Positions 2,934 to 48,902 of a stretch of 64,000 nt of DNA are shown here, piece by piece. This DNA is from Micromonospora echinofusca. GTDB lineage: Bacteria; Actinomycetota; Actinomycetes; Mycobacteriales; Micromonosporaceae. The notes beneath the pieces were generated by a model. It was not told where the DNA came from, did not search any database, and was given only the letters and a program-made list of their open reading frames with translations. Position numbers and translations under genes: made by a program. The number at the start of each line of letters is the position of its first letter. Positions within the stretch are counted from its first letter, which is position 1. The stretch is from NCBI RefSeq assembly GCF_900091445.1, contig NZ_LT607733.1:1195501-1259500 (forward strand), given 5' to 3'.

Positions 2934-3152
2934 ATGGCAACGGCTGAGGGTTTCGCGTACGTCGAGCGGTCGGACGGCACAGTGGTGATCACCCACCACG
3001 GCCGGGCGGCGGGCACCTTGCGGGGCGGCCGGGCGGCGGAGTTCCTCGCCGAGGTCGACGGCGATCCGCAACTCGTCATGGCCCGGTGGACCGGCAACTA
3101 CCGCCGGGGCAACGAGCGGACCGCCCGCCGACACCCCCGCAACCAGGGCTGA
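2934..3152 (+). CDS. Small conserved actinobacterial protein, unknown function
   Basis: The 72-residue product starts MATAEGFAYVERSDG and has a compact pattern: VVITHHGRAAGTLRG, then a helix AAEFLAEVD, then VMARWTGNYRRGNERTA. I recall this as a widespread small protein in Streptomyces and Micromonospora with no known function. The longer frame starting at 2841 adds an Arg/Pro-rich segment that does not look like protein-coding sequence, so I chose ATG 2934. A strong hairpin follows directly after the stop codon. Confidence 0.65.
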   Translation: MATAEGFAYVERSDGTVVITHHGRAAGTLRGGRAAEFLAEVDGDPQLVMARWTGNYRRGNERTARRHPRNQG

Positions 3153-3158
3153 GCGAGG

Positions 3159-3194
3159 CGGGAGGACCGCGCTCACCGAGCGCGGGCCCTCCCG
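3159..3194. terminator. Intrinsic terminator-like hairpin
   Basis: A two-part stem (CGGGAGG with CCTCCCG, and CCGCGCTC with GAGCGCGG) closes on a 3-base loop with a small bulge. It begins 7 bases after the stop of the small gene ending at 3152. No T tract follows, which is normal for high-GC actinobacteria. Confidence 0.65.
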
Positions 3195-3298
3195 GCGTAC
3201 GTCGTGATGCGGGCTGGGCCTTGAACCGTGCCCGGCTGCGTGGCCGGTCGAGCCGGTGACCAGAGCCTGGACGACCGGCGCTGTCGTCGCCGTGTTGC

Positions 3299-3334
3299 GA
3301 TACCACAGCGGCATCTTCATGCCTCGCAGGTATC
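3299..3334. repeat. 36-bp four-part dyad element, copy 1
   Basis: The element reads GATACC, 5 bases, GGCAT, 4 bases, ATGCC, 5 bases, GGTATC. Both nested pairs of arms are perfect inverted repeats around one centre. A second copy with the same spacing lies at 12531-12566, and similarity continues for about 30 bases to the right (CGGCG..CA.TGGTTC.TC.GC). Here that flank also holds a perfect CACTGC/GCAGTG hairpin. The element sits between convergent genes (3152 and 3435), so it is not an obvious promoter element for either. It could be a protein-binding site or a structured RNA. Confidence 0.6.
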
Positions 3335-3434
3335 AGCACTGCGGCGCAGTGGTTCGTCGGCGCCGCGCGCCTGCCACGTCCTCCGAGCCTCGCACTTCGG
3401 AAATCGCCGGCCGCCCGCAGCCTCCGGGCCGGCC

Positions 3435-4874
3435 CTACAGGGGGATGTTGCCGTGCGCGCCCCGGGCCGCCGGAGCGGCGGCGAGGGCCTCGGCGATGCG
3501 GCGGCGCGTCTCGGCGGGGGTGATGACGTCGTCCACCACGCCGATCTCCAGGGCCCGGTTGACGCCGCCCGCGATGCGGGTCTGCTCCTCGACGAGCTGC
3601 GCGCGCAGCGCCTCGCGCTCCTCGGCGGGGACGGCGGCGAGCCTCTTGCGGTGCAGGATGTTGACGGCGGCGCCGGCGCCCATGACGGCGACCTCGGCGT
3701 TGGGCCAGGCGAACACGGCGGTGGCCCCCAGGGAGCGGGAGTTCATCGCGATGTACGCCCCGCCGTACGCCTTGCGGGTGACCAGGGTGACCCGGGGCAC
3801 GACGGCCTCGGCGAACGCGTGCAGGAGCTTCGCGCCGCGGCGGACGACGCCGTCCCACTCCTGACCCAGGCCGGGCAGGTAGCCGGGGACGTCGACCAGG
3901 ACGATCAGCGGTACGCCGAGGGAGTCGCACATGCGTACGAACCGGGCGGCCTTCTCGGCGCTGGACGCGTCCAGGCAGCCGCCCAGGCGCAACGGGTTGT
4001 TCGCGACGACGCCGACGGTGCGCCCGGCGAAGCGACCCAGGGTGGTCACGACGTTGGGGGCCCACTTGGCGTGCAGCTCCACGCCGGGGGCGTCCAGCAG
4101 CGCCTTGACCACCGGCTTGACGTCGTAGGCCCGGTTCGGCTCCGCCGGCATCCTCGCCGCCAGGTCGTGTCCCCCCTCGTCCCGGGCGGACACGTCGTCG
4201 GGCGACAGGCGCCCCTGCCGGCCCAGCAACGCGGCGAGCCGGCGCGACTCGATGATCGCCGACTCGTCGTCGGCGCAGGTCACGTGGACCACCCCGGAGC
4301 GGCGGCCGTGCGGCTCGGGCCCACCGAGGCGCGCCATGTCGACCTGCTCGCCGGTGACGCTGCGGACCACTTCCGGGCCGGTCACGAAGATCCGGCCCGC
4401 GCCGCTCATCACCACGATGTCGGTCAGCGCCGGCCCGTACGCGGCGCCACCGGCCGCCGGACCGAGCACCGTGGAGATCTGCGGCACCCGCCCCGAGGCA
4501 CGCACCATCGCCGCGAAGACCTGGCCCACGGCGTCCAGAGCGACCACGCCCTCGGCCAACCGTGCCCCGCCCGAGTGCCACAGCCCCACCACCGGCACCC
4601 GTTCGCGTACGGCGGTGTCGATGGCGTCCACGACGTGCCGGCACCCCTCGGTGCCCATCGCCCCGCCCATCCGCGTCGCGTCCGTGGCGTACGCGACGAC
4701 CGGCGATCCCTCGATCTCGCCGCGCGCCCACAGCACGCCCGAGGTGTCGCGGGGCACCGACAGCCGCAACGATCCCGCGTCGAACAGCGCCCGGAGCCGA
4801 ACCTCCGGATCCCGGTGGTCGACGACGGAAGATGCGTCCACGCCGACGGCGGTGGTGCTCACGTGTGCCTCCAT
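3435..4874 (-). CDS. accD: Acyl-CoA carboxylase carboxyltransferase (beta) subunit
   Basis: The 479-residue protein has the two crotonase-like halves of biotin-dependent carboxyltransferases. The N-half contains GGAMGTEGC, WHSGGARLAEG and GPAAGGAAYGPALTDI. The C-half contains NNPLRLGGCLD, DVPGYLPGLGQEWDG and KAYGGAYIAMNSRSLGA. It transfers CO2 from carboxybiotin on an alpha subunit encoded elsewhere to acetyl- or propionyl-CoA, supplying malonyl-CoA to fatty-acid synthesis. It is the last gene of the fas operon, 10 bases after fabF, the position of accD6 in Mycobacterium. It is somewhat shorter than the ~520-530 residues usual for this family, mainly at the N-terminus. Substrate preference cannot be read from sequence. 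Confidence 0.92.
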   Translation of the reverse strand: MEAHVSTTAVGVDASSVVDHRDPEVRLRALFDAGSLRLSVPRDTSGVLWARGEIEGSPVVAYATDATRMGGAMGTEGCRHVVDAIDTAVRERVPVVGLWHSGGARLAEGVVALDAVGQVFAAMVRASGRVPQISTVLGPAAGGAAYGPALTDIVVMSGAGRIFVTGPEVVRSVTGEQVDMARLGGPEPHGRRSGVVHVTCADDESAIIESRRLAALLGRQGRLSPDDVSARDEGGHDLAARMPAEPNRAYDVKPVVKALLDAPGVELHAKWAPNVVTTLGRFAGRTVGVVANNPLRLGGCLDASSAEKAARFVRMCDSLGVPLIVLVDVPGYLPGLGQEWDGVVRRGAKLLHAFAEAVVPRVTLVTRKAYGGAYIAMNSRSLGATAVFAWPNAEVAVMGAGAAVNILHRKRLAAVPAEEREALRAQLVEEQTRIAGGVNRALEIGVVDDVITPAETRRRIAEALAAAPAARGAHGNIPL

Positions 4875-12436: not shown

Positions 12437-12530
12437 CCACGGCGACGTCCTCCGGGCGTACGGTCTGTTTCATAGACCGTGGCTGACCGCGCCCGACGTC
12501 GCCGGCCGGCGGTGTGGTGCCCTCGCCCTC

Positions 12531-12566
12531 GATACCACACAGGTATTTATATGCCGCTCAGGTATC
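12531..12566. repeat. 36-bp four-part dyad element, copy 2
   Basis: The element reads GATACC, 5 bases, GGTAT, 4 bases, ATGCC, 5 bases, GGTATC. It has the same architecture and spacing as 3299-3334. The inner arm carries one change (C to T), which still pairs as G-U if the element acts as RNA. The downstream flank (CGGCGGCAATGGTTCATCAG) is also conserved. It again lies in an intergenic region, between the gene ending at 12436 and a decayed gene. Confidence 0.6.
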
Positions 12567-12619
12567 AGTGTTCCGGCGGCAATGGTTCATCAGCTTGACG
12601 CGCCTTCCGCGTCTTATGT

Positions 12620-12847
12620 CAGCCAGACACGGTCGACTGGAAGGTGCGCGAGGGGCGCCTGTCCGGCGCGATCCCCGGGCACTTCGTCAAGCCGTCGACC
12701 GTGGATCTGGGCGTGCTCGCCGGGCTGGTCGACGTCGGCCGGCTGACGGTCCACGTGCAACGGACGTTCCCGCTGGCGCAGGCGGCGGACGCGCAGCGCA
12801 CGGTGGAGGCGGGGCACGTCCGCGGCAAGGTGGTCCTGGAGCTCTGA
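12620..12847 (+). pseudogene. Remnant of an MDR-family (quinone oxidoreductase-like) gene
   Basis: Two pieces of a zinc-type alcohol dehydrogenase/quinone oxidoreductase are joined. VDWKVREGRLSGAIPGHF matches the N-terminal 'VNPVDWKVREG' region. It is followed directly by LAGLVDVGRLTVHVQRTFPL and GHVRGKVVLEL, the C-terminal end of the family. The whole nucleotide-binding middle (roughly 220 residues) is missing. No start codon with a ribosome site is present. It is best read as an internal-deletion pseudogene next to the dyad element. Confidence 0.6.
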
Positions 12848-29372: not shown

Positions 29373-29444
29373 GGGCGCGTAGCTCAGTGGGAGAGCACTC
29401 GCCTTACAAGCGAGGGGTCGCAGGTTCGAAACCTGCCGCGCCCA
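29373..29444 (+). tRNA. tRNA-Val (anticodon UAC)
   Basis: A full cloverleaf can be drawn: acceptor GGGCGCG/CGCGCCC, D arm with AGCTCAGTGGGAGAGC, anticodon stem CTCGC/GCGAG with loop containing TAC, and T arm CAGGTTCGAAACCTG. The discriminator base is A; no encoded CCA. The 3' half is duplicated at 30726-30768, marking it as an integration target. Confidence 0.95.
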
Positions 29445-29445
29445 C
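29403..29445 (+). repeat. Attachment site, tRNA-proximal copy
   Basis: 43 bp from the anticodon loop to just past the tRNA 3' end are repeated exactly at 30726-30768. An intact tRNA on one side and a bare 3' half on the other is the signature left by a tyrosine-recombinase element. Confidence 0.85.
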
Positions 29446-29498
29446 ACTCTGACCAGCACGTGAAGCGGGCTGCCGGTTGATCGGCGGCCCGCTTCGTC

Positions 29499-29782
29499 TC
29501 AGTTCGTCGCGTTCCAGAGCAGCCCGGCGACCTGTTCGGCGATGCCAGCGGTGATCTCCGGGGCTAGGTGCTGGTACCGGGTCGTCATGGCCATCTGCGA
29601 CCAGCCCATGACCTCCATGACGGCACGGGTCGGCACGCCGAGGACCAGGAGCATGGTCGCGGCGGTTTGTCGGGCGTCGTGCAACCGGGCGTCCCGCACG
29701 CGCGCTTCCTTCAGCAGCGCATCCATGCGTCGTGATCGGCCCGCGGATCGATCGGCCTGCCGTTGGGCTGCGTGAAGACCCA
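29499..29782 (-). pseudogene. Truncated tyrosine recombinase (integrase), frameshifted
   Basis: Only the C-terminal ~95 residues remain. WVFTQPNGRPIDPRADHDAW is in one frame and DALLKEARVRDARLHDARQT onward is in another, so a frameshift lies near 29722. The HxxR box reads HDARQT, GWSQMAMTTRYQH carries the catalytic Tyr, and the protein ends normally in LLWNATN. The catalytic core upstream is absent; the sequence starts exactly where the neighbouring lipoprotein gene stops. It cannot be active. It lies next to the tRNA-Val attachment site, as expected for an integrase. Confidence 0.85.
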
Positions 29783-29783
29783 C

Positions 29784-30479
29784 TCAAAGCATCGCCACTG
29801 GCACCAGGCGCACCGCCTCGACGCCATCAAGGCGTTCAATCTCGGGCAGCCCGGTCCCACCCTTTCCGTTCAGGGGAAGCTGGAGCCGCAGCGAAGCGCG
29901 CGTCACCTGCGAGTCGAGTTGCGTGGCAAGGTCGCCCTTGCCTTGGCACTGCTTACGCAGACGCTCAAAGGCGGCGTCGCGGTCCTCGAATTCGACCGAC
30001 TCCGCGTGGGGTAGCGCCCGGACGGCCTCCTCTACAGTGGCTCGCTGCTCTGCCGTAGCCGGTTCTAGCCGGACGATCGCCCCGATCCGCGACGGGAGGG
30101 GATCAACATCGGCGATCTTGAGCACAGCCCACTCGACGCCGTCGACCGTACCCATCACCAGTTCGGCTGCCTCGGCGACCGACACGTCCGTGACAGTCGC
30201 GCGAAAGGACTCCGGTATGTGCTCCGGATCCAGATCCGCCAGCAGGTCCGGCGAGTCTTTCCGCAATTTCTCGTATGCCTGATCGCGGGTCTCGAAGACG
30301 ACGCCCTCTACGCTCGGTATCGCGCGTAGCCGCTGCTCCACCACACTTTTTTGCGCTGCCGTCACATCATGGTCCAGCAGGACGGTCAATGTTGTGTGCC
30401 CGGCATCCTTCGGCTCGGAGGTGCAAGCGGACAAAGCGGAAAGGAGCAAGAAGGCCAATACCGGCGCGATGCGACGCAT
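29784..30479 (-). CDS. Lipoprotein with two FtsX-ectodomain-like modules
   Basis: The 231-residue product has signal peptide MRRIAPVLAFLLLSAL and lipobox LSAC (Cys19), so it is probably anchored outside the membrane. Residues ~30-120 (TLTVLLDHDVTAAQKSVVEQ, then AIPSVEGVVFETRDQAYEKL, PESFRATVTD) match the extracellular domain of the cell-division protein FtsX. A second, more divergent copy follows (VRLEPATAEQRATVEEAVRA, then SVEFEDRDAAFERLRKQ). In FtsX this domain binds peptidoglycan-hydrolase activators. Here it occurs without the permease, twice, inside the att-flanked segment. The role is unknown. Confidence 0.8.
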   Translation of the reverse strand: MRRIAPVLAFLLLSALSACTSEPKDAGHTTLTVLLDHDVTAAQKSVVEQRLRAIPSVEGVVFETRDQAYEKLRKDSPDLLADLDPEHIPESFRATVTDVSVAEAAELVMGTVDGVEWAVLKIADVDPLPSRIGAIVRLEPATAEQRATVEEAVRALPHAESVEFEDRDAAFERLRKQCQGKGDLATQLDSQVTRASLRLQLPLNGKGGTGLPEIERLDGVEAVRLVPVAML

Positions 30480-30725
30480 GAGTCAGATCGTAGGTGGGCG
30501 CGAGGCATCGAGTGATCCCAGGGCCTTGGCCGGCGTGCCCGATGCAGCGGTTAAACATGGAGGCTAGGGACACAACGTGGCTGACAATCAACGGTCGCTG
30601 GCGGCCGTCTCGTCTCGGTTCTCGTCTCGTTCACTGACGTTCAGGGCGGGTCGGAGGCGGTGGTAGGTGTCGATCTTTCCTGGTGATGGATGCCGGCGGA
30701 CCTCTCTGGACAGAGCGTCATGGAA

Positions 30726-30768
30726 CTTACAAGCGAGGGGTCGCAGGTTCGAAACCTGCCGCGCCCAC
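30726..30768 (+). repeat. Attachment site, distal copy (tRNA-Val 3' half)
   Basis: An exact 43-bp copy of 29403-29445. The 5' half of the tRNA is absent, so this is not a tRNA gene. With the proximal copy it delimits a 1.28-kb segment. Confidence 0.85.
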
Positions 30769-30917
30769 CATCACCATCAGCACCAACACCGGCCCGAAGA
30801 TCAGAAACCAGGCCGATGGCAGCAGCGGTGACAAGCGATGTCCCGATGGGCGAACCGCGACGACTGGGCGCGCTCGACATCCACCCGTCGGCCCTGTTCC
30901 GTAGGCGATCCGCCGCC

Positions 30918-31206
30918 GGACTGCCCTGCAGGACAGATACGCCCTGCTGACGGCCGACCCGGCGGTCGACGAAGAAGTCGACCCCGACAAGATCGACGAC
31001 GACGTCCTGGCGCTCGTCCCGGTACCGATGGAGGAGTTCGACTCCGGCAGCGCTCGTACGGGCCACCTCCGCGCTGCGGCCATCGACGAACGAACGAAGG
31101 TCATCGACCAGAACGATCGTCCGGCGGGCATCCACGCGATGATGATGCCCGGCGCCGTCACGATCTGCCATCCGGATCTGCCGCCGCCCGAGAGTCACGA
31201 GGCGTG
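30918..31206 (+). pseudogene. Coding-like fragment, C-terminal end of an unknown protein
   Basis: The frame ending TGA at 31206 has strongly G/C-biased third positions and a protein-like sequence (RYALLTADPAVDEEVDPDKI, then LVPVPMEEFDSGSARTG, ending PDLPPPESHEA). No start codon or ribosome site lies upstream, and an in-frame stop occurs near 30910. It is probably the tail of a gene broken by island rearrangement. I do not recognise the family. Confidence 0.4.
31168..31184 (+). repeat. Intergenic motif copy (CATCCGGATCTGCCGCC)
   Basis: One of several similar short sequences in the accessory region, all in the same orientation. Together with the copy at 39746 it extends to about 30 bases with 3 mismatches, continuing to CCGAG.GTCAC. 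Confidence 0.35.
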
Positions 31207-31297
31207 ACGAGATGTCGTAGGGTCCGTCGCGCTGAGACAGGGGACCCCCTGTGTTACCGAATCAGCTGAGCGCCGCTGCTGCGGCACCGGCGTCTCG

Positions 31298-32017
31298 TCA
31301 GCGGGCCGTTTGCTTGCCAACTGTGTCGGCTCGGATCGCGATGGTGACCTGGTTCCCCGCGGCGGGGTCGATGACGCAGTGCAGTCCGAGGTCTGTGATG
31401 CGGCCGTCGCGTGGGTCCCACTCGCGGGCACCGGCGTCACTTCCCAAGATTGAGCCGAGCGAGTCGATCGTGGGCTTCCACAGGTTCGGCCAGGCGCGGC
31501 GGGGCCCGACCACGAACGCGAGCTGGAGGGCGATACCGCCATCGAGAAGTGGTTGAGCGGCGATGATCTGGTCGCGGATCTGCCGCTTGTACGCGGTGGT
31601 ACTGGCTGACGCAGTCGTGCGCACCTGCAGCGAGCACACCCCGCCGGGATCCTGGACAGCGTGCGTCTGGCACACCGCGACCGAGGACCACGTTGCATGC
31701 CGCTTGGTCGCCCACACCGAGGCGAACTGCCGCCCGATGTCCTTGGTCAACTTCGGGACGAGCGGAAACAGGTAGTTGTCGAGGTCGTTGAGCGCGAGCA
31801 GGGGCACCTTGTCCGGCAGCCCGATGTCCACGCGCAGCGCGAGCGGATCCGGTGTGACGCGCAACTGCATGGCGACGGCCGACTGGACGTCGGCGGCAAA
31901 CGCGACGAAGCGGACCTGGCCAGATGACCCAGCCGTGTCCCAGCTGGCCAGGGCAGGCGGAACGCTCAGTGCGCTTCCCATGGAATCCGGGCGCGCATAG
32001 AAGACAGGCAAGGCCAC
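31298..32017 (-). CDS. Hypothetical protein
   Basis: The product of up to 239 residues starts at GTG 32017; ATG 31981 is an alternative, and neither has a clear ribosome site. Two segments look related to each other: LLALNDLDNYLFPLVPKLTK and AWPNLWKPTIDSLGSILG. The Asp-rich 'D-LDN' pattern is faintly like RusA-type Holliday-junction nucleases, but not enough to assign. It lies 143 bases beyond the stop of a PD-(D/E)XK nuclease gene on the same strand, so a shared DNA-processing or defence role is possible. Confidence 0.6.
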   Translation of the reverse strand: MALPVFYARPDSMGSALSVPPALASWDTAGSSGQVRFVAFAADVQSAVAMQLRVTPDPLALRVDIGLPDKVPLLALNDLDNYLFPLVPKLTKDIGRQFASVWATKRHATWSSVAVCQTHAVQDPGGVCSLQVRTTASASTTAYKRQIRDQIIAAQPLLDGGIALQLAFVVGPRRAWPNLWKPTIDSLGSILGSDAGAREWDPRDGRITDLGLHCVIDPAAGNQVTIAIRADTVGKQTAR

Positions 32018-32160
32018 AGGCGGAATCTATCGCCAGACCAGAGCTCGACCACCCGTTGTGCCTGCGGGTTGCTCGGACCAGCGTTCCTCGTTTGCCTTCT
32101 TGCTTGTGCCGCGATCCGCGCCGAGTGCGGAGACTTCCAGGTGCGGTGGTGGCGGACCGC

Positions 32161-33219
32161 TCAAGCCGCACCGGGCTCCAGCGGCTCATAGCTGAATTCG
32201 GGGCTTGGCGCCAAGGCGATGAGTCGGTCGAGGACGGGCTCGGTATTGGTGCCCCACATCTTGGAGACGACCCAGGTGCGTCCTTGATCGTGCAGGGGTG
32301 CGTCGAGGAACCAACGGCCGAGGCGTTTGGTGGATCCCGGGTAGGTCGCTAGGAACGCCTTGGCGAGTTCTTCACCGCTCAGCAGGCCTTCGACTGGCAG
32401 GAATCTCGAGCGTGGGATGGCGGTGCTGAGCTGTTGGGCGGTAATTCCTGCCTTGTGTAGGGCTGTCGCCATGGTGAGCACGGCCCAGCGCTTACGCAGA
32501 GGACGACTGCGGCCTTCGGGAGTGACGATCTCGTACTGGGTCCAGTCGCGGCCATCGGCACTGACCGCCCGGGCCTGGCTCTGCTTACGACGGATCTGGA
32601 CGGTCAGTTCGCCGGCCTCGGGCAGCGGGATGATCTGCTGCACGTCCAGTAGCAGCCTTTCGGCGACCTTGTACGGCGTGAGCTTCACGCAACGGATGTC
32701 AAGTCCGTACACGTCGGTCAGCCAGAGCACAGTCGTGGTGATCTCACGGTCAAACCCGGCAGCCACGAGTACCAGGCGTACTTCGCGGCTGAGCACCGTC
32801 TCCTCCCCGCCGGCGTCCTCGAGAAATTCCGCCAGTCTGGACCGGGCTTCGTCGACCGCTTCGGGTTCGACCTGGGCCAGATAGTGCTCGTGATGTTCGA
32901 CGAGGTCGTCAAAGGTCATGACGGACACCATCGCGGCATACCGCAGCGCCTGAAGTTCCACGTGACCGCCGTCGTTGGTGCGCTTGAGCTCGATGACGAC
33001 CAGTCGGCCACTACGGTCGACTCCCAGCAGGTCGACACGGCGTCGAGCATCGGTGAAGGCTCCGAACTCCTCAGCCACGACCATCACGCCGTCGACGATC
33101 ATGTCGATTCGCGCGCGAAGCAGCCGCTGCAGGTCAGCCCGCTCCAGCACTTGCTCCGCCGTGAAGGTGGTGGACGGCACCGGCTCCAACACGTTGGACG
33201 TCATCTCGTACAGCGGCAT
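32161..33219 (-). CDS. PD-(D/E)XK nuclease-like protein (NucS/DUF91-like)
   Basis: The 352-residue protein starts at ATG 33219 (MPLYEMTSNVLEPV). The nuclease core is seen as VDLLGVDRSGRLVVIELKRT, giving D...ExK, preceded by the helix LQRLLRARIDMIVDGVMVVA. This resembles the DUF91/NucS-like endonuclease domain fused to a ~200-residue C-terminal region of unknown fold (YEIVTPEGRSRPLRKRWAVL). Such stand-alone proteins are common in mobile regions. I cannot say whether it acts in repair or defence. The uncharacterised gene at 31298 follows on the same strand. Confidence 0.7.
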   Translation of the reverse strand: MPLYEMTSNVLEPVPSTTFTAEQVLERADLQRLLRARIDMIVDGVMVVAEEFGAFTDARRRVDLLGVDRSGRLVVIELKRTNDGGHVELQALRYAAMVSVMTFDDLVEHHEHYLAQVEPEAVDEARSRLAEFLEDAGGEETVLSREVRLVLVAAGFDREITTTVLWLTDVYGLDIRCVKLTPYKVAERLLLDVQQIIPLPEAGELTVQIRRKQSQARAVSADGRDWTQYEIVTPEGRSRPLRKRWAVLTMATALHKAGITAQQLSTAIPRSRFLPVEGLLSGEELAKAFLATYPGSTKRLGRWFLDAPLHDQGRTWVVSKMWGTNTEPVLDRLIALAPSPEFSYEPLEPGAA

Positions 33220-33703
33220 CCGGTCATCATTGCAGTGACGGCGGCGCTGCTGGGGAGGCCGCGCGTGAGCACGCACGGCCCGGTGCTGCCGATCTGGAGC
33301 CGATCTCCGTGGCCTTCTGCCTGGGTGCCCAACTGGTGGGCGCCTCCGAGGATCTGACCTCGGTGCCGGCGGGGCGCTGCATCAACGCTTCCTCGGCTGG
33401 AGGCGGGGGAGAGGCCACCTGAGGAACGAGCGTCCCAGGGTGCGCATCCAGCGCCTCGTACGGCGCCAGCAGTACGGCAGGAGGCTCGCTCCGAACGATT
33501 TCAATCCACTGTGGACATGAGCTACGCTCTCCGCCGGGCCTGCCGACTCGATCGGTACGTGCGGCAGAGGCAGCCACCGGCAACGGTGGCCGACGCCGCA
33601 CGCAACCCGGGTGACCTGCGCGATCCGCGGACCCCGAGCCGCTCTTGGGTGGGTTTTCCGCCGCCGCTACCTGCGCCGCCACATCAACGAAGGACCGATT
33701 CAG
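33220..33703 (+). other. 484-bp region before the biosynthetic pair, with a coding-like fragment
   Basis: One plus-strand frame ending TGA at 33422 has coding-like base use and reads LEPISVAFCLGAQLVGASED, then LTSVPAGRCINASSAGGGG, then EAT. It lacks an ATG and a ribosome site; a GTG sits inside it. It may be a broken gene tail or an unusual small peptide. The remaining ~280 bases show no supported gene. The ribosome site AAGGA near 33690 belongs to the downstream reductase. Confidence 0.35.
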
Positions 33704-35026
33704 TTGTACGACGTGATCGTCATCGGCGCCCGCTGTTCGGGTGCGTCCACCGCCCTGTTGCTCGCCCGGCGTGGACACCGGGTGCTCGTGGTGGACCGCT
33801 CGTCGTTTCCCAGCGACGTCATCTCGACGCACTTCCTCTGGCCGCACGGGATGTCCTATCTGAACCGGTGGGGACTGCTGGACGAGGTCCTGGCGGTCAC
33901 TCCGGCGCACACCACGGTCGAGGTGGTCAACGACGGCATCTCGCTGACCGGCTCGGTGCCGACCGACCTGCTGCGTGAGTACTTCCGGGACCTGCACGGC
34001 GACGACTCGGGCGTGGTGCAGAGCTATGCGTCCGTGCGGCGGCGGGTGCTCGACGAGATCCTGGTCGGCGCGGCCGCCAAGGCCGGTGCCGAGGTGCGAA
34101 CCAACTTCACCGTTCGTGAGCTGATCGTCGAGAACGGGCAGGTCGTCGGTATCCGGGGGCGTGCGGTCGACGGAGGGCTGGTCGAAGAGCGGGCCCGGAT
34201 CGTGGTCGGTGCCGACGGCCGGAACTCGTTCGTCGCCCGCACCCTCGCGTTGCCGAAGTACGACGAGCGGCCCCGCTGCACGTTCGCCTACTGGAGCTAC
34301 TGGTCCGGCTTCGACCTCGGCCCGGCACAACTGCACCGGCGCGGCCGGTTGGCCTGCGCGGTGGCGCCGACCAACTTCAACCAGAACATGGTCCTGGTCT
34401 GGGGGCCGAGTGAGTGGTCGCGGGAGTTTCGCGGTGACGTGCCGGGCAACTACCAGAAGGCGTTGGACTTCGTCAGTCCGGAGCTGGGCGACGTGGTGCG
34501 CACCAAGGGGACCAGGGAGGAACGCATCTACGGCACCCTGGACCAGTCGGCCTTCCTCCGGCCACTGCACGGGCCCGGGTGGGTGCTCGTCGGTGACGCC
34601 GAGTCGGCCAAGGACCAGTGCACCGCGATCGGCATCACCCACGCCTTCCGCGACGCCGAGCTGGTCAGCGCCGCACTCGACCGGTGGCTCCGCGGTGACG
34701 CGTCGATCGACGAGGCGATGACCGCCTACGGGGACCGCCGCCGGAGCCAGAACGCTGCCGCCTACCACGACTACGTCTGCACCCTTGCCGAGATGCGTCC
34801 GTACCGGCACGACGAGTTGCAACTGTTCGTCGCGTTGCGGGGCAACCAGCAGGAGACCGACCGGTTCATCGCCACACACGCCGACATCGCGCCGGTGTCG
34901 GAGTTCTTCCAGGCCTCCAACCTCTTCCTGCTCAACGACGCCGCGAAGGAGTCCTCCGCAGACCACGCGGTCTTTGAGGACTTCGCGGAGACCACCCGCA
35001 GCTACCAGCAGAACCTCTTCGCCTGA
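33704..35026 (+). CDS. FAD-dependent oxidoreductase (geranylgeranyl reductase/halogenase-like family)
   Basis: The ~440-residue flavoprotein starts at TTG 33704, eight bases after AAGGA. The N-terminus DVIVIGARCSGASTALLLAR is a Rossmann GxGxxG variant, followed by HRVLVVDRSSFPSDVISTHF, VVGADGRNSFVARTL and the late FAD motif GWVLVGDAESAKDQCTAIGI. This is the GGR/flavin monooxygenase superfamily. No tryptophan-halogenase WxWxIP motif is seen, so a reductase or hydroxylase is more likely. It ends where the oxoamine synthase begins, forming a two-gene unit closed by a terminator at 36744. Confidence 0.85.
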   Translation: MYDVIVIGARCSGASTALLLARRGHRVLVVDRSSFPSDVISTHFLWPHGMSYLNRWGLLDEVLAVTPAHTTVEVVNDGISLTGSVPTDLLREYFRDLHGDDSGVVQSYASVRRRVLDEILVGAAAKAGAEVRTNFTVRELIVENGQVVGIRGRAVDGGLVEERARIVVGADGRNSFVARTLALPKYDERPRCTFAYWSYWSGFDLGPAQLHRRGRLACAVAPTNFNQNMVLVWGPSEWSREFRGDVPGNYQKALDFVSPELGDVVRTKGTREERIYGTLDQSAFLRPLHGPGWVLVGDAESAKDQCTAIGITHAFRDAELVSAALDRWLRGDASIDEAMTAYGDRRRSQNAAAYHDYVCTLAEMRPYRHDELQLFVALRGNQQETDRFIATHADIAPVSEFFQASNLFLLNDAAKESSADHAVFEDFAETTRSYQQNLFA

Positions 35027-35049
35027 TGATCCACCAGGGAGACGAAACC

Positions 35050-36603
35050 GTGACCATCGAGCTGGACCAGCGTGAAGACGGCGAACTGATCGGGATCATC
35101 CTCAAGGCGGCACACTGCCGGGACTTCGAGACCATGACGCGTACCGCGACCGAGGTCTCCGAGATGACCCGCAACTGGGCCACCCACATCCCGTGGGACG
35201 ACCTCGCGTCGCTCGAAGGCGCCGACGACGAGCTGGCCCAGGTGGTCGCCGACCTCACCGAGATGTGGGAGCCGGCCCACCTGCGCAACCCCGTCGACCC
35301 CGACGAGGAGTACGCCCTGGACAAGAACGCGTACGACTTCTACCGGCCCGCCGGCCGCAACCTGCTGACCCGCACCGAGGACTTCTACGGCTGGGTGCAG
35401 GCCCGTCGCCGCACGGAGACGTGGCAGTACTCCCGGGTGCTGGAGGCGGCACCGGACAGCGTTGCCCAGATCACCAACGACCTGGGCCGGCGGGCCCGCG
35501 GCATCAACTTCAACTCGCAGGACTACCTGTCGTTCAACACCCACCCGGCGATCCGGGAGGCGGCGGCCAGGGCGATGCACGACTACGGGCCGCACAGCGC
35601 CGGCTCGCCGATGGTGCTTGGCAACACCCGCATCTCCGACGATCTGGAGGCTGCCCTCGGTGACCTGGTCGGACTCGACCACGTGACGCTCTTTCCGACC
35701 GGCTGGGCGGCCGGCTTCGGCGCGGTCGTCGGTCTGGTCCGGCAGTCCGACCACATCCTGATCGACCGGCTGGCCCACTCCTGCCTCCAACAGGGGGCAC
35801 GGGCGGCCACCCGGAACGTGGTCCGCTACGAGCACCTCAACGTCGAGGCGGTACGCCGGCACCTGACCGAGATTCGGGCCACGGACACCCGCAACGGCAT
35901 CCTGGTGGTCACCGATGGGCTCTTCTCGGTGGACGCGGACTGGCCGGACCTCGTCACCCTGCAACGCATCTGCCGGGAACACGATGCCACGCTGCTGGTC
36001 GACGTGGCGCACGACCTCGGCTCGATGGGGCCCGGCGGCACGGGCGTGCTGGGGATGCAGGACCTGCTCGGCAGCGTCGACATCGTGATGGGCGCCTTTT
36101 CCAAGACGTTCTGCTCCAACGGTGGCTTCGTGGCTTCCAACTCGCCGGCGTTGAAGCAGTACATCAAGATGTTCGGCGGCTCGCACTTCTTCTCCAACGC
36201 GCTGTCGCCGGTGCAGACCGCGGTGGTGCGGGAGGCCACCAGGATCATCCGGTCGGCCGAGGGGGACGTGCTGCGGTCCCGGCTCTTCACCGCGATCCAC
36301 GCCCTGCGCGACGAGCTGACCGGCCGGGGTCTGACCTGCATGGGTGAGCCGTCACCGATCGTGCCGCTACTGATCGGCAACGAGAAGCTGGCGCGGACGG
36401 CGAACCGCCTGCTCTTCGACCGAGGGGTGCTGGCATTCATGGTCGAGTTCCCGGTGACCCCGACCGGCTCGTCCCGGTTCCGGCTTCAGGTGCAGGCCGG
36501 GCACCGGCCCGAGGAGGCCCGCGAGGCGGCTCGGATCATCGAGGGCGCCATCGCCGACTCCCGGGCGTACCTCTCCAGCGCCTTCGGCAGCGCTCCCCGC
36601 TGA
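35050..36603 (+). CDS. Alpha-oxoamine synthase (PLP-dependent acyltransferase) with N-terminal extension
   Basis: A ~517-residue protein starts at GTG 35050 behind AGGGAGA; ATG 35026, overlapping the upstream stop, has no ribosome site. Residues ~110 onward match the family that condenses an amino acid with an acyl thioester (5-aminolevulinate and 8-amino-7-oxononanoate synthases): INFNSQDYLSF, DVAHDLGSMGPGGTGVLG and PLP Lys in GAFSKTFCSNGGF. The first ~100 residues are an acidic helical extension not found in housekeeping members. With the adjacent FAD enzyme it probably makes or modifies an acyl-aminoketone. Neither heme nor biotin genes are near. Confidence 0.87.
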   Translation: MTIELDQREDGELIGIILKAAHCRDFETMTRTATEVSEMTRNWATHIPWDDLASLEGADDELAQVVADLTEMWEPAHLRNPVDPDEEYALDKNAYDFYRPAGRNLLTRTEDFYGWVQARRRTETWQYSRVLEAAPDSVAQITNDLGRRARGINFNSQDYLSFNTHPAIREAAARAMHDYGPHSAGSPMVLGNTRISDDLEAALGDLVGLDHVTLFPTGWAAGFGAVVGLVRQSDHILIDRLAHSCLQQGARAATRNVVRYEHLNVEAVRRHLTEIRATDTRNGILVVTDGLFSVDADWPDLVTLQRICREHDATLLVDVAHDLGSMGPGGTGVLGMQDLLGSVDIVMGAFSKTFCSNGGFVASNSPALKQYIKMFGGSHFFSNALSPVQTAVVREATRIIRSAEGDVLRSRLFTAIHALRDELTGRGLTCMGEPSPIVPLLIGNEKLARTANRLLFDRGVLAFMVEFPVTPTGSSRFRLQVQAGHRPEEAREAARIIEGAIADSRAYLSSAFGSAPR

Positions 36604-36953
36604 GGACGTCTCGTAACTCGATGAAGGCGAGATGCCGGGCGCCCGGACCGGACCGGCAGCCGGCAGATGCCCGTTCCGGTCTGTGAGCCGTACGATGCGG
36701 GCGATGGGATCCCGGTACTGCCCACCATCGGAGTAACGCAGTCGAGGCACCCTCGGATGAGGGTGCCTCCTGCTGATCGCTTCGCTTCTCGCGAAAGACG
36801 GCATTCGCGAGATCCGGTTCGAAGCGGCCCAGGTGGATCAGCTCATGCGTCGTCGAGTACGAACGCTCGCATCAGCTCTGGGCACTCTGCTGCGGAGGGT
36901 GGAGGCGTGCGGAAGATCGCATGCAAGCGCCGGCGCTCGGACAGGGCTGTCGT
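36604..36953. other. 350-bp intergenic region with terminator and a coding-like remnant
   Basis: Apart from the terminator at 36744-36769, bases 36772-36880 contain a coding-like stretch (LIASLLAKDGIREIRFEAAQ) without start or family. The rest shows nothing I can support. Confidence 0.4.
36744..36769. terminator. Terminator after the oxoamine synthase gene
   Basis: A perfect 11-bp stem GAGGCACCCTC / GAGGGTGCCTC with loop GGAT lies 140 bases after the stop, ending the two-gene biosynthetic unit. Confidence 0.8.
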
Positions 36954-37517
36954 TCACTGTCCGAGAAGGCGGTAGCGGAGGTGTACGACGCCGTTTCGGA
37001 ATCGGCGCTCGTCGAGGAGCTCAAGGTCGGTGCGCATGCCTGTCGGCAGCCCTGGCTTGCCCCCTCCGACGACGATGGGCAGGACGACCAGCCGGCACTC
37101 GTCGACCAGCCCGGCCCTGAAAGCCTGCGTCGCGAGGTTCGCGCCTCCTACGGTGAGATCACTGCTGGCCGTGGCCTTCAATTCGCGTGCTGCGGCGGGG
37201 TCGAAACGGCGTTCGAGTCGGGTGTCGGCAGTTGACACCGCGGCGAGGGTCGTGGAGTACACGACTTTGCTCGCCGCCTGCCAGGCGCTCGCGAAGTCGG
37301 CCATGAGGTCGGACTGCGCGGCCAGAGCGGCGTCGGTCTCCCAGACGGCCATCGCCTCGTACAGGCGTCGCCCGTAGAGACACGTGCCCACAGACCGCAG
37401 GAGGTCGGTGTGGAACGCGAACACCTCGTCGCCGATCGGGAACCAGTCGAACGCGCCGCGCTCGTCCTCGATGTAGCCGTCAAGCGATACGTTCGTCACG
37501 TAGATGAGCTTGCCCAT
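36954..37517 (-). CDS. RibD C-terminal/dihydrofolate reductase-like protein
   Basis: The 187-residue protein has the family start KLIYVTNVSLDGYIEDERGA, then GRRLYEAM, DLTVGGANLATQAFRAGLVD and VVLPIVVGGGKPG. This fold binds NADPH, but most stand-alone members have no proven substrate and are not true folate reductases. ATG 37517 follows GAGAGGTG. It heads the run of small single genes. A second family member lies at 54215. Confidence 0.88.
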   Translation of the reverse strand: MGKLIYVTNVSLDGYIEDERGAFDWFPIGDEVFAFHTDLLRSVGTCLYGRRLYEAMAVWETDAALAAQSDLMADFASAWQAASKVVYSTTLAAVSTADTRLERRFDPAAARELKATASSDLTVGGANLATQAFRAGLVDECRLVVLPIVVGGGKPGLPTGMRTDLELLDERRFRNGVVHLRYRLLGQ

Positions 37518-37935
37518 GCCGTCACCTCTCGATGGTCGATCGAACTAGATCCAGTCTCGGGCCGTCTCATGACTCCCTTGTCCCGGGAGGCCAGACCGAC
37601 TGCCTTCACCTGTTCCACGAACGACCCGCGGCGGATCCGACACCGTGCCGGAAACGTCCTCAGACTCGCGCCGCTCGGCGCTCGTGATCGTGAAGCGCCC
37701 GTGCTCGTCGGGATCATGGTCTCCGTACCGGCGGGTCGTCATCTGCCGTGATCAGCGCGCCGAGGTGTCGCAGATCAGTCGACGGAGGACACGTGTGGTC
37801 CGACAGTTGATCTGCCATGCAGCTCTGCCACCGAGGTGCGACAGGGCCGGCGGTCGAGGGATGGCAGGTCAGCCGCCGACGAGACGTCCTGTCATGCCGA
37901 GAACGGTGATGTCCAGAACCCGTAGGATGTGGCCG
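37518..37935. other. 418-bp intergenic region
   Basis: It holds one copy of the short recurring motif (CATCTGCCGTGATCAG, 37740-37755) and a minus-strand frame ending near 37545 without ribosome site or family. No gene is supported. Confidence 0.4.
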
Positions 37936-38670
37936 GTGGGGTGGGAGGCACTCGGGCGGTGGGGCGAAGATGCCGTTCGCATCGAACCGCTCGCCGGCGG
38001 AGTCGCCAACGACGTGTGGAGTGTGCGCGTCGACGGGCGCCTCGCGGTCGGTCGTCTCGGCACCAGGAGCGACGCTGATCTTGCGTGGGAGACAGCGCTC
38101 CTCCAGCACCTCGACCGTGAAGGTCTGACGGTCCCGGTCCCTATCCCGACCACGGACGGCCGGCTGTTCGCCGACGGTCTGGCGGTGATGACCTATCTGG
38201 ATGGCGGACCGCCCGAGACGCAGGCCGACTGGCGTCGCGTGGCCGGCACGCTCCGCGAGTTGCACCGGCTGACGCGGGGCTGGCCGCAGCGCCCAGGCTG
38301 GCGATCGTCGACCGACCTCCTGCACGCCCAGACCGGGACCAAGATCGACCTCGGCGCGATGCCCCCTGAGAGCGTTGCTCGATGCAGAGTGGCGTGGGCG
38401 CGGCTCACCGGGCGCCAGACATGCGTCGTCCACGGCAACCCCGCCAACCCTGGCAACGTCCGCATGACCGCGAGTCAGGTCGCGCTGATCGACTGGGACG
38501 AATCGCACGTCGACGTCCCCGACCTCGACCTCGTGCTGCCCGGCAACGCCGCCGGCCTCGACGACGGTGCGCTCGACATCGCCGGGCAGGCGTCGGCCGC
38601 GTGGGAAGCCGCCGTCTGCTGGGACGACGAGTACGCAGCCAGACGGCTCGCCGAGGTCCGAGCGGTCTGA
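37936..38670 (+). CDS. Aminoglycoside phosphotransferase-like protein with altered catalytic loop
   Basis: The product of ~244 residues starts at GTG 37936 after GTAGGA; ATG 37927 is an alternative. The kinase-like fold is seen in EPLAGGVANDVWSVRVDGR, VMTYLDGG and LRELHRL. The catalytic loop reads CVVHGNPANPGNVRM, where HGD is normal, so Asn replaces the catalytic Asp. The metal motif is ALIDWDE (D-W-D). Phosphotransfer may therefore be lost or weakened. It lies between two copies of the recurring short motif. The likely ancestral role is phosphorylation of a small molecule. Confidence 0.75.
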   Translation: MGWEALGRWGEDAVRIEPLAGGVANDVWSVRVDGRLAVGRLGTRSDADLAWETALLQHLDREGLTVPVPIPTTDGRLFADGLAVMTYLDGGPPETQADWRRVAGTLRELHRLTRGWPQRPGWRSSTDLLHAQTGTKIDLGAMPPESVARCRVAWARLTGRQTCVVHGNPANPGNVRMTASQVALIDWDESHVDVPDLDLVLPGNAAGLDDGALDIAGQASAAWEAAVCWDDEYAARRLAEVRAV

Positions 38671-38783
38671 GAACGCGTTCGAGGAATGGGGTTGTTGGCG
38701 GCCGAGTGCGTACATCTGCCGCGATCAGGGCAACCCGCGAGCGGCTGCGATGCTGACTGCTGCGGCTCGTGCCGCTGCAGCGG

Positions 38784-39155
38784 TTACACGCCTGTGGGGT
38801 AGAGCCTCAGTTGTTCGACCACCACAACAACGGTCGTTCCAGGCGGGACGTCGCGGGAGCCATCGTCGACTTGGACCTGCACAAGTCCCTCGGCTACGCG
38901 CACTGTCAGGAGTTCCTGATCCTGCAGCTCTACTGATCCACGTAACCGGGGGCCATCCCGCAGGATCGCCTCAGCGCCGTCCACCGCGATCGCGTCGGCC
39001 CATCCGAGTATGGCGTCGACGTCGAGTTCAACGTCGACGAGCTCGCCGGCACTGGGCGGCACACCAACCCACTCTGCCCGCACCGGCACGCCCGCTACCA
39101 CGACGTCGACCATTATCGGTGTGCCTGGATGCACCACGAGGACATTCGCTCGCAT
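38784..39155 (-). CDS. Hypothetical protein
   Basis: The 123-residue protein starts MRANVLVVHPGTPIMVDVVV. It is mostly beta-strand forming, acidic, with no hydrophobic segment (ELVDVELDVDAILGWADAIA, VPPGTTVVVVVEQLRLYPTG). It resembles small single-domain proteins found among immunity and accessory genes, but I do not recognise a family. No clear ribosome site precedes ATG 39155. Motif copies flank it at 38713 and 39177. Confidence 0.55.
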   Translation of the reverse strand: MRANVLVVHPGTPIMVDVVVAGVPVRAEWVGVPPSAGELVDVELDVDAILGWADAIAVDGAEAILRDGPRLRGSVELQDQELLTVRVAEGLVQVQVDDGSRDVPPGTTVVVVVEQLRLYPTGV

Positions 39156-39295
39156 GCGCCAGATGATCGCAGCCGACATCCGCTTCTGCCGCTTCCAAGG
39201 CGCTCGTTGACCGGCGGAGATGTCACGCTCCGCACAACTCACCAGCCAGACCCGAGGGGCTTGTCGGGACGGTAGGCCGTTGGCCCTTCTGCCAG

Positions 39296-39643
39296 TCAGC
39301 GGTGGCTGACGACGTTGACCACATTGCCGTCCGGGTCGCGGACGAAGAAGCGCCGGACACCCCACTGCTCGTCGGTGATCGGGTGCACAATCTCTGCGCC
39401 CGTCGCGCGTACCGCCTCGTAGACGGCGTCTACGTCAGCGACCTCCACGCTGAGGTCCGGGTTCACGGAGGCTGCTGCATCTTTGGTGATGAGGATGACC
39501 TGGGCGGTGGGGTCGAACGGTGAGACCAAGTTGACCACCCAGCCCAGGTTCATCTCCTCGCGGAAGCCCAGAAGTTGGTAGAAGCCGCTGCTCGCGACCG
39601 GATCGGCGGTTGTGATATCGGGTACGGCACGGCGAATCGTCAT
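39296..39643 (-). CDS. Glyoxalase/bleomycin-resistance-type (VOC) protein
   Basis: The 115-residue single VOC module has paired beta-alpha-beta units: TIRRAVPDITTADPVASSGF, YQLLGFREEMNLGW, VEVADVDAVYEAVRATGAE and VRRFFVRDPDGNVVNVVSH. It could bind metal or a small molecule; family members include glyoxalases and bleomycin-binding proteins, and the ligand cannot be predicted. It is a single gene between motif copies at 39177 and 39746. Confidence 0.85.
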   Translation of the reverse strand: MTIRRAVPDITTADPVASSGFYQLLGFREEMNLGWVVNLVSPFDPTAQVILITKDAAASVNPDLSVEVADVDAVYEAVRATGAEIVHPITDEQWGVRRFFVRDPDGNVVNVVSHR

Positions 39644-39745
39644 GCCGGATTCTGGCACGCGAGGTACTGGCTCGGGCGAGTGGTGGGCCCCGCTCACCAG
39701 GCGCCAGGGCGGGATGCGGCGCACTCGGACCGTGACATGCCGCGG

Positions 39746-39763
39746 CATCCTGATCTGCCGCCG
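39746..39763 (+). repeat. Intergenic motif copy (CATCCTGATCTGCCGCCG)
   Basis: It lies between the glyoxalase start and the nucleotidyltransferase stop. Similarity to 31168 continues to the right (ACCGAGCGTCAC versus CCCGAGAGTCAC). Confidence 0.35.
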
Positions 39764-39771
39764 ACCGAGCG

Positions 39772-40599
39772 TCACTGCCGAGAACAGCAAGCTCCTCGAC
39801 CGGCGGTCACCGGGGTGAGGCCGACGTGTGTGGCACGTTCCGAGGCCAGGATGGTGGCGCTGAGTTCGATCACGAATGCCCGGACGTCATCGGCGCTGCC
39901 GGGGTCGGTGTCCGGGCCGGAGTCGTACCACCAGTCGCATGCCCAGATGATCAGGTGCGCCCACCGGGGGTGGGTGGTGATGGTCTTGTCGGCGGCCTGC
40001 CGCTTGGACAGTTGCTGGCCGTTCTGGAGGCGTTGAAAGGCCCGGCAGAGGGTGAGCACCGCGTAGGACTGGGCCCCAGCGGTGTTCATCTGGGTCACCC
40101 AGGCCGGCCAGTCGCGGACGTGGTCCAGCAGAGCCGAGCGGACGCGGTTGGGGTCGACGGCGGGTAGCAGGATGTCGGCCGGGGGGCCCAGCAGGCTGCG
40201 GCCGTGATCGTGGACGGCGGACCAGGTCACGAGGCGGTGGGTAGTGGCAGGTAACAGATGCAGCACTTCGCCGGGGCTGACCCGGGCAATGACATGGTCC
40301 CGACCGGTGCCACCGTGCGCCGCGTCGCGCGCGGCAGCCAGTGACACGTATTCCACCTCGATCCTGCCGGCCCACTGTGGGTGTCGCCGGTCAAGGTCTG
40401 TGTGCAGTCCGGCGAGCACGGCGAGGAGGTTCTCGTCCGGGTCGCTGTCGAGTACCGCGAGCAAATCAAGATCACTGCGATCTTCGGCGAAGGCGCCCGC
40501 CACTAGCGAGCCGTGCACGTACAGGCCCAGAAGCCCGCCAGCCAGCGCGGGACTCCACGCGTCACGAAGATCGGATAGAACCATCTCGGGTGGTGCCAC
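39772..40599 (-). CDS. Aminoglycoside adenylyltransferase-like nucleotidyltransferase
   Basis: The 275-residue protein has nucleotidyltransferase motif GLYVHGSLVAGAFAEDRSDL followed by DLLAVL (GS...DxD), and a C-terminal helical domain (YAVLTLCRAFQRLQNGQQLS, KRQAADKTI) like the AadA/DUF4111 architecture. Such enzymes adenylylate antibiotics or other small molecules; whether this one does is unknown. It is divergent from the hydrolase at 40825. Confidence 0.82.
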   Translation of the reverse strand: MAPPEMVLSDLRDAWSPALAGGLLGLYVHGSLVAGAFAEDRSDLDLLAVLDSDPDENLLAVLAGLHTDLDRRHPQWAGRIEVEYVSLAAARDAAHGGTGRDHVIARVSPGEVLHLLPATTHRLVTWSAVHDHGRSLLGPPADILLPAVDPNRVRSALLDHVRDWPAWVTQMNTAGAQSYAVLTLCRAFQRLQNGQQLSKRQAADKTITTHPRWAHLIIWACDWWYDSGPDTDPGSADDVRAFVIELSATILASERATHVGLTPVTAGRGACCSRQ

Positions 40600-40729
40600 C
40601 AGGTCATCCTGCGCTGCGGCCCGTCAGCCCGCCACCGAGTTGAGCCGGCCACAGAAAACACGTTGGCGGATCACGGGCCCGCTGCTAGTTTTCCCGAAGG
40701 CCGTGCGAGAGACCGAGGAGGTGGTACCC

Positions 40730-40780
40730 GTGAACGTTTCGACATGGGTGCTCCCCTCTGGGGTCACGGTCGGGCGATAG
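40730..40780 (+). CDS. 16-codon ORF with consensus ribosome site (leader peptide or truncated gene start)
   Basis: AGGAGGT ends 7 bases before GTG 40730, the best ribosome site in the region. The frame encodes VNVSTWVLPSGVTVGR and stops at TAG 40778. It ends 44 bases before the hydrolase gene. It could be a regulatory leader, or the surviving N-terminus of a deleted gene; the 'LPSGVTVGR' pattern is faintly like an aldo-keto reductase start. Confidence 0.35.
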   Translation: MNVSTWVLPSGVTVGR

Positions 40781-40824
40781 GTCGTCCGGGAGCGCCGTTC
40801 ACGAGCACTCCGAAAGGCACGACC

Positions 40825-41559
40825 ATGCGATTCACTACTGAGCAGCGCCTCGATGACGGCGTCCTCGAACGCGAATTCACTCTCGGCGGGATCCCCGGCA
40901 TCCTGTGGACGCCCGAATCCGCATCGGCACCGGTCCCGCTGATCCTGCTCGGCCACCCCCCGCTCGGGCTGCACAAGATGTACCCCCGTCTGGTGGTGCG
41001 GGCCCGGCACGCTGCGGCGGATGGCTTCGCCGCAGCCACCATCGAGCTCCCCGGCAGCGGTGACCGGCCCCGTTGGGCCGCCGTCGAGCAGGCCCGCGCC
41101 GACCTGCGCCGGGCCATTGACGCCGGCGAGCGGGTCAGCGACGAGATCATCGACGCCCTCGTCCTTCCGCTCGTCGACAAGGCGGTCCCGGAATCGCAGG
41201 CCGCCCTGGATGCCCTCCTGTCGCTGCCCGAGATCAGTGGCCCGGTCGGGTACTCGGGGGGAGTGATCTCCATTGGCATCCGACTGGCGGTGGTCGAGCC
41301 GCGCATCGTGGCCGCCGGCTTCTTCGCAGGGAGCTTTGTGCCTCGCACCATGTTCGAGGAGGCCCGACAGGTCACCATTCCGCTGCATGTCCTGCTGCAG
41401 TGGGATGACGAAGGCAACGATCGGCAGGCGGCCCTGAACCTGTTCGACGCCTTCGGCTCCGTGGAGAAGACGCTGCACGCCAACATGGGCGGACACACTG
41501 GTGTCCCTCACTTCGCAGGGGAGGACGCGGCAAGGTTCTTCGCCCGGCATCTGCGCTAG
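40825..41559 (+). CDS. Alpha/beta hydrolase
   Basis: A 244-residue hydrolase starts at ATG 40825 after AAAGG. The core shows PLILLGHPPLGLHKM, a nucleophile elbow GYSGGVIS (Ser) and a late His in GGHTGVPHFAGEDAARFF. It looks like a dienelactone-hydrolase or acyl-peptidase-type member without a lid. No signal peptide is present. Substrate unknown. Confidence 0.83.
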   Translation: MRFTTEQRLDDGVLEREFTLGGIPGILWTPESASAPVPLILLGHPPLGLHKMYPRLVVRARHAAADGFAAATIELPGSGDRPRWAAVEQARADLRRAIDAGERVSDEIIDALVLPLVDKAVPESQAALDALLSLPEISGPVGYSGGVISIGIRLAVVEPRIVAAGFFAGSFVPRTMFEEARQVTIPLHVLLQWDDEGNDRQAALNLFDAFGSVEKTLHANMGGHTGVPHFAGEDAARFFARHLR

Positions 41560-41945
41560 CCGCAGACCCGGGGGCCCGCCGCCAGGCCAGCAGCAGGCGG
41601 TAGGCGGCGCCGGCCGGCACGCCGCTCATCGAGGACAGGCTCCGGCTCTCCTCGATGGCGGTGGCCAGCAAGTGCACGACCGCCCCGATCGCGGCGGTAC
41701 CGGGCCATCGGCGGTACCGGCCGGTCGGGGCGGAGTTCTGCTCCTGGTGACCGGCTTGATCTCTGCAAGATCAGCTGAACCTACTTCTGTACTCCAAGGA
41801 GTACCCCGACGACAGGCCGTGCGTGCCCGGATCTGCCGCAGGACGTTCAACATGTCGCGTGCGCCGAGCGGTCAACGTACGAGGGCATGCCGTGAGCGGC
41901 GGGTTGCTCTGACCGGGCATCTTCACGGTCCCGGTCTCGCCAGCG
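41560..41945. other. 386-bp intergenic region with a gene-tail remnant
   Basis: On the minus strand, bases ~41562-41700 encode a protein-like stretch (AIGAVVHLLATAIEESRSLS, then VPAGAAYRLLLAWRRAPG) that runs without a stop into DNA antisense to the hydrolase gene. It is probably a truncated leftover. A motif copy (CCCGGATCTGCCGCA) lies at 41826-41840. No intact gene is supported. Confidence 0.4.
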
Positions 41946-42610: not shown

Positions 42611-42842
42611 GACGTGGTCCTTCCTGGACAGGATCGACGTCCTGTCCAACGGACCACACCCAGGTCAAACACGGAAATCTACGCAGTCCCACGGTGACGG
42701 TGGCCCGCGCTCATCGGCACGTCCGGACCTCGGCGACCGGCGCCGACCTCGTGCCGATGTGTGGAATCATGCCGCCGTGCTGGATCAGTCGGTCAGCGTG
42801 TTGTAGTCGCGGCCTTTACATCTGAGTGTCGGCGCGCAGGCG

Positions 42843-47366: not shown

Positions 47367-47371
47367 GCTCG

Positions 47372-48722: not shown

Positions 48723-48902
48723 CCCAGGGACCCTACGGCGTGTTTCAGAGGTCGTGGGGTCTGATCGCAGTCCTGGTGGCGTTCTGGCTGACGGAGACGT
48801 GGGAGCCGCGGCGGTCGAGGTCGCTCCGGCGTGGCGGATGCCGACGTGGACGCGTGGATCAGTTCGTCGCTGAGCGTGGAGCCACCCGGCTGGCGGTCGC
48901 GC

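Follow-up and report, generated by a model that had tools for sequence, protein, structure and literature searches.

A four-part candidate protein-binding site dispersed by mini-transposons in a Micromonospora chromosome

A 36-bp element of four half-sites, seen in a 64-kb window of the Micromonospora echinofusca chromosome (the window being the whole stretch of 64,000 nucleotides analysed), is a dispersed repeat: it occupies 43 places of the chromosome, recurs in relatives, and is missing, with its surrounding repeat, from the site in the nearest relative found that corresponds to the first of the two window copies. It forms the core of a longer repeat that has MITE-like ends and resembles clean-ended MITEs of other genomes; its four half-sites and the distances between them are strongly constrained, its spacer bases are not. 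Such unusually good preservation of a core within decayed mini-transposons points to continued use by the host, most probably for protein binding, and we give even chances to its being a four-part protein-binding site that was dispersed by MITEs and retained after the transposon died.

The element and its distribution

The two copies in the window lie on the plus strand at 3299..3334, reading GATACC-N5-GGCAT-N4-ATGCC-N5-GGTATC, and at 12531..12566, reading GATACC-N5-GGTAT-N4-ATGCC-N5-GGTATC; re-reading the sequence bore out both the coordinates and the layout given in the initial annotation. With three mismatches allowed, the core pattern was found in the window at these two copies only, and none of 100 shuffled versions of the window matched it. 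The half element ATRCC-N5-GGYAT occurred 4 times in 264,020 sampled bases, all within the two window copies, so half elements are not floating about on their own.

The description of the element as present twice holds for the window and fails for the chromosome (7,002,527 bp, one contig), where the Y-tolerant search proposed in the initial annotation located 43 places at three or fewer mismatches and a reversed control gave 0. These copies were located by the core pattern, with the best-scoring candidates per genome kept, and degraded copies may be missed. A strict R/Y pattern was found in 16 of 160 Micromonospora genomes, at 39 places here and at 1 to 16 in each of the others, and outside Micromonospora in one of 194 genomes of the family, at a single place; a stricter pattern that requires AG after the core matched 28 stretches of the genome collection, all from Micromonospora. 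The notion that just two copies might exist, with none in relatives, is thereby set aside.

Counted in quarters from the origin, the sites here number 15, 15, 9 and 4 (dnaA at 6.476 Mb; KS p = 0.008), but four other genomes, with 20 sites between them, showed no such bias (p = 0.37), and terminus exclusion of the SlmA/Noc kind was rejected because of this disagreement. Plasmids held no match to copy 2 or to one of the related MITEs described below (L118). A 30-bp match of copy 2 in four Gordonia phage records (E 3e-3) falls inside a tail gene and was taken as chance. The literature search, which covered non-subscription papers, returned no description of the element or of Micromonospora MITEs; among the matches listed for the four motif strings, one string alone appears, in unrelated animal studies.

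The larger repeat and the constraint on its core

Aligned with their surroundings, the copies in this genome show that the core usually occupies the centre of an oriented repeat spanning up to about 220 bp, as it does in the nearest relative found; the 218-nt consensus of this repeat has at least 42 matches in the genome. At its ends the consensus carries an imperfect inverted repeat, CTACGG...CCGTAG, with TA near the termini; in individual copies the terminal repeats are imperfect and often lost. Copy 1 aligns over 3266..3385 (plus strand, 77% to consensus, query 40-160 of 218), with a fainter likeness to the repeat ends visible by eye on both sides beyond. Copy 2 aligns over 12459..12627 (plus strand, 89%, query 2-169 of 218) and has kept the left terminal repeat TACGGTCTGTTTCATAGACCG and lost the right end. 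A third member in the window, a right end without a core, lies on the minus strand at 48733..48810 (91%, query 141-218). The roughly 30 similar bases noted earlier to the right of the core are real and belong to this repeat, which reaches left as well. The second perfect hairpin noted there, CACTGC/GCAGTG, exists in copy 1 but not elsewhere: a perfect 6-bp hairpin within the first 24 bases right of the core is present in that one copy of the 43. At G000:C1:2778973-2779027 (L169) we observed a left repeat end without a core, which resembles a short deletion product retaining both ends.

The criteria applied for MITEs and REPs follow PMC2229807, PMC3733652 and PMC8266576. Like MITEs, which have about 200 bp or less, the repeat with its 218-nt consensus is non-coding and present in many copies, and carries terminal inverted repeats and terminal TA. 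Its first 88 consensus bases match loci in three other genomes (G111, G019 and M. musae, G062; best E 2.9e-10), and the three loci that were read (L117, L118 and L119) are elements of about 165 bp whose centre has a single GATAC-centred dyad resembling the core's left half. Two of them, L117 and L118, have perfect terminal repeats, TAGGG...CCCTA, with TA termini, and those of L119 are imperfect. M. musae holds at least four matches to this family. An autonomous IS as partner was sought in the M. echinofusca genome by the pattern of the terminal inverted repeats (one mismatch) and rejected, the pattern occurring at 3 places that are all known copies. No pair of copies exceeds 67% identity over the alignment window, which extends past the repeat, so no recent copying is seen. 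Target-site duplications were looked for at the copy-1 site and one other (L008), both too diverged from relatives for the junctions to be read.

The nearest relative found is Micromonospora sp. C31 (G120), 96% identical in the carboxyltransferase gene adjoining copy 1. The element is absent from its copy-1 site, where gain here and loss in strain C31 are indistinguishable. Strain C31 has at least 17 matches to the 218-nt consensus, of which 14 were read, leaving out the three weakest (L251-L253). Nine of the 14 share their position with a copy here, and the other five (L238, L239, L242, L245 and L246) have no partner among our loci. Of the 14 cores, seven have at most one mismatch, another differs by a longer loop, and six are damaged or gone, so the core constraint is not general. 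Copies that keep a core and copies with the core damaged or gone number 32 and 2 here, among the matches listed, versus 8 and 6 in strain C31 (p = 0.005), a contrast that is suggestive only since the queries differ and the comparison is one-sided, made from places kept here. Among the 28 loci of other species, a flank matches the repeat in four, all of them from strain C31, and neither flank matches in 24, so the MITE does not explain those 24 copies. In these the sequence around the core is different, and core and surroundings often make up a palindrome of about 48 bp, GAGCCT-core-AGGCTC, in which the AG after the core was imposed by the pattern. Dispersal by a MITE is thus well supported for this genome and strain C31, and less so elsewhere.

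Divergence was measured in 39 copies, those whose flanks could be aligned over 30 bases or more; the four dropped from the 43 include one wrongly oriented copy (L069). Mismatches to consensus number 3 in 780 (0.4%) at the 20 fixed core positions, compared with 422 in 3620 in the flanks, 91 in 390 in the spacers, 21 in 156 in the loop, and 41 in 377 and 24 in 192 in the two terminal repeats; flanks and terminal repeats are about 12% off consensus. All 20 fixed positions are intact in 36 of the 39 copies, where 4.5 would be expected from the copies' own flank divergence. Queries made of each flank alone (E up to 1e-3) reached at least 32 core-bearing copies, 30 of them with 0 mismatches and two with 1, and two coreless ones among the matches listed (L169 and the window right end at 48733-48810); at a divergence of 11.7%, 30% of copies would be expected to have at most one mismatch in 20 positions. 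Two further left-flank matches, at 553921 and 1490150, were set aside by eye as chance matches in coding DNA. Half-sites and spacing are more constrained than their surroundings, as in an operator, one of the readings offered initially; this divergence supports an operator-like constraint on the four half-sites.

Gene surroundings and pairing of the core

Gene calls came from a codon-usage predictor of our own, for which 15 ORFs served as training set. The gap that holds copy 1 is convergent, between genes at 2934-3152 (plus) and 3435-4874 (minus), as the initial annotation had it for both copies; for copy 2 this does not hold. The left neighbour of copy 2 is a histidine kinase on the minus strand with its 5' end towards the copy, and the right neighbour, at 12644-12847 on the plus strand, is a 67-aa zinc-binding dehydrogenase remnant, probably a pseudogene. 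The gene left of copy 1 has a GC-rich terminator-like hairpin without a T run (3157..3196, plus strand, -32 kcal/mol), and a similar hairpin stands at the equivalent site of strain C31, where the repeat is absent.

Over the chromosome, the genes on either side of a copy are convergent in 20 cases, tandem in 12 and divergent in 8; two copies are at the edge of the gene calls, and one overlaps a predicted gene. The convergent share is 20 of 40 classified copies; among 99 gaps of at least 60 bp, sampled from 20 stretches of 10 kb, it is 19 (p = 0.0004). Where the flanking genes are tandem, ten of the 12 copies stand antisense to them (p = 0.04). The two edge copies (L007 and L069) follow 5S rRNA genes at distances of 262 and 73 bp, and an opposite-strand gene lies beyond. 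Copies of other species comprise 16 convergent, 13 tandem, 5 divergent and 5 at an edge.

Several observations on nearby genes stand apart from these counts. A gene for an XRE-type regulator, recognised by eye, has a core upstream at orthologous loci (L052 and L054), at 33 bp here and 234 bp in M. avicenniae (G010). A family of near-identical paralogues of about 190 aa with a signal-peptide-like start lies 0.56-0.89 kb from six cores (L031, L032, L033, L036, L049 and L085) in M. acroterricola (G001), strain RHAY321 (G124) and G141; it was rejected as a transposase and probably represents duplicated host genes. An IS21-type pair in the window (43319-45609) consists of a transposase (Mu-transpos_C_2, rve) and an IstB ATPase, and equal matches of the Bac_DnaA model at three places of the chromosome suggest three IS21-type copies. 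The stretch 29373-48722, which holds a tRNA gene followed by a long run of predicted genes with low coding scores, is perhaps a genomic island.

The inner variable pair of the core, over the 43 oriented copies, is T/G in 30, C/G in 9, C/A in 3 and T/A in one (with the orientation of L069 corrected). The arm difference was initially said to keep G-U pairing; it does so on one strand of the oriented form, but the other strand has C-A. Copy 2 folds at -12.0 kcal/mol on the plus strand and -8.5 on the minus strand, and copy 1, with its C/G pair, folds on both (-13.7 and -15.7 kcal/mol); the plus strands of copies 1 and 2 fold better than shuffles (z -3.8 and -3.9). The spacers of 39 cores here are complementary at 38 of 195 positions (shuffled mean 35.5, p = 0.25), and those of 72 cores from 14 other genomes at 282 of 360 (shuffled 245, with 0 of 5000 shuffles as high), where one orthologous pair (L028 and L048) carries a compensated change, TCAGC/GCTGA versus TGAGA/TCTCA. 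Covariation is thus seen in other species but not in this genome. A long hairpin appears to be maintained there and not here, which would mean that what is held is the half-sites at their spacing, not one continuous hairpin. Palindrome correction during replication could produce spacer pairing of this kind in the other species. The search pattern fixed the half-sites in those species, and their constancy there is no evidence; we take ATRCC half-sites at fixed spacing to be what is recognised. The structured RNA also suggested at the outset is poorly supported here: the spacers are unpaired, the RNAalifold covariation term of the long repeat over 22 copies is -0.03, Rfam at the gathering cut-off finds one tRNA in the window and no family over either copy, and most copies between tandem genes are antisense.

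Interpretation and comparison with known systems

We propose an old Micromonospora family of MITEs, non-autonomous transposons bounded by terminal inverted repeats, with the 36-bp element at their centre; a transposase acting in trans presumably spread them. In this genome the family now looks immobile and its ends are eroded, and the centre may have been retained because a host protein binds double-stranded DNA there. Each half, ATRCC-N5-GGYAT, would be a 15-bp palindromic dimer site; with 19 bp between the centres of the two halves, the full element would accommodate two dimers or one tetramer. Spacer pairing in other species, which a plain double-strand operator does not need, counts against this proposal, as do the six of 14 strain C31 cores that are damaged or missing, the 24 loci of other species whose flanks do not match the MITE, and the failure to find an intact partner IS with these ends in this genome. 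A further step, which we hold to be distinctly improbable, is that the 43 sites serve together, as an array spanning the chromosome, an architectural or cell-cycle DNA-binding protein present in some Micromonospora, having been seeded by a transposon since dead and then kept by selection; their ongoing loss from strain C31 would mean that the protein has been lost there.

The core could instead be mobile in its own right, a REP- or attC-like hairpin serving as the single-stranded DNA substrate of an HUH enzyme or tyrosine recombinase, with the flanks hitch-hiking and the cores looking conserved since only intact ones are copied. The different flanks and covarying spacers of other species speak for this, as do the commoner Y1 transposase genes in core-bearing genomes (9 of 16 versus 36 of 144, p = 0.016) and the box-spacer-box-loop-box-spacer-box order, which resembles attC; yet most copies are in this genome, which has no Y1 transposase, and no core lies within about 1.5 kb in the 30 Y1 loci read, eight of them from core-bearing genomes. 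A RAYT/IS200 partner, sought with PF01797 in the 160 genomes, was rejected on those same two results. GTAG or CGTC occurs within 8 nt of a core end in just 10 of 43 copies here and one of 28 elsewhere (counts without a shuffled control), and the nine positions shared with strain C31 show that at least these copies are not recent. On balance we find a mobile core doubtful.

That the copies are inert MITE remains, their constraint an effect of how they were found, is unlikely in our judgement: the first set did come from the core pattern and from best-scoring candidates per genome, six of 14 cores are damaged or gone in strain C31, and a convergent gap is what harmless insertion would leave, but the core-blind flank queries recovered nearly perfect cores, and the terminal repeats, needed for transposition, are as diverged as the arms where aligned. 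We think it quite unlikely that the cores terminate transcription in both directions or act as RNA hairpins at 3' ends. The convergent excess, the two copies behind 5S rRNA genes and the folding of the plus strands would agree with termination, but no T run follows the core, after which the consensus continues AGCGTTCC; the spacers are unpaired in this genome, a stronger hairpin (-32 versus -13.7 kcal/mol) belongs to the gene left of copy 1 and is present in strain C31 too, the antisense copies between tandem genes present the strand on which T/G becomes C/A, and eight copies lie between divergent genes.

If retention of a binding site is the right reading, the element would illustrate clearly how a bacterial mini-transposon can scatter a protein-binding site across a chromosome and then be survived by it. 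The related strain pair, with preserved sites in one and decaying sites in the other, would offer a natural comparison for finding the protein, and ATRCC-N5-GGYAT-N4-ATRCC-N5-GGYAT could be used as bait.

Integron attC sites have two pairs of inverted boxes whose spacers need not pair, and the element shares the paired inverted boxes and the freedom of the spacers; its boxes are GATACC/GGTATC, not the attC core consensus, and its copies are dispersed, not arrayed. The nucleoid occlusion proteins SlmA and Noc have tens of palindromic sites over one chromosome. Here too there are tens of palindromic sites, biased to the origin half, but their sequence is different, and the other four genomes lack the bias. 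REPs with their RAYTs (PMC3733652, PMC8266576) are likewise small intergenic palindromes in tens of copies with a patchy occurrence between species; the element does not fit this class, having no GTAG/CGTC tag, no Y1 transposase in its genome, and a setting in a repeat of about 220 bp bounded by terminal inverted repeats. Close in kind are the Correia/NEMIS MITEs, which carry an IHF site, and the Caulobacter CIR, which carries a methyltransferase site (PMC2229807): both are short repeats without coding capacity, found mostly between genes, that end in terminal repeats or TA and contain a motif recognised by a DNA-binding protein. The element described here shares this plan and differs from them in its sequence, in being GC-rich, and in a four-part motif far better preserved than the ends.
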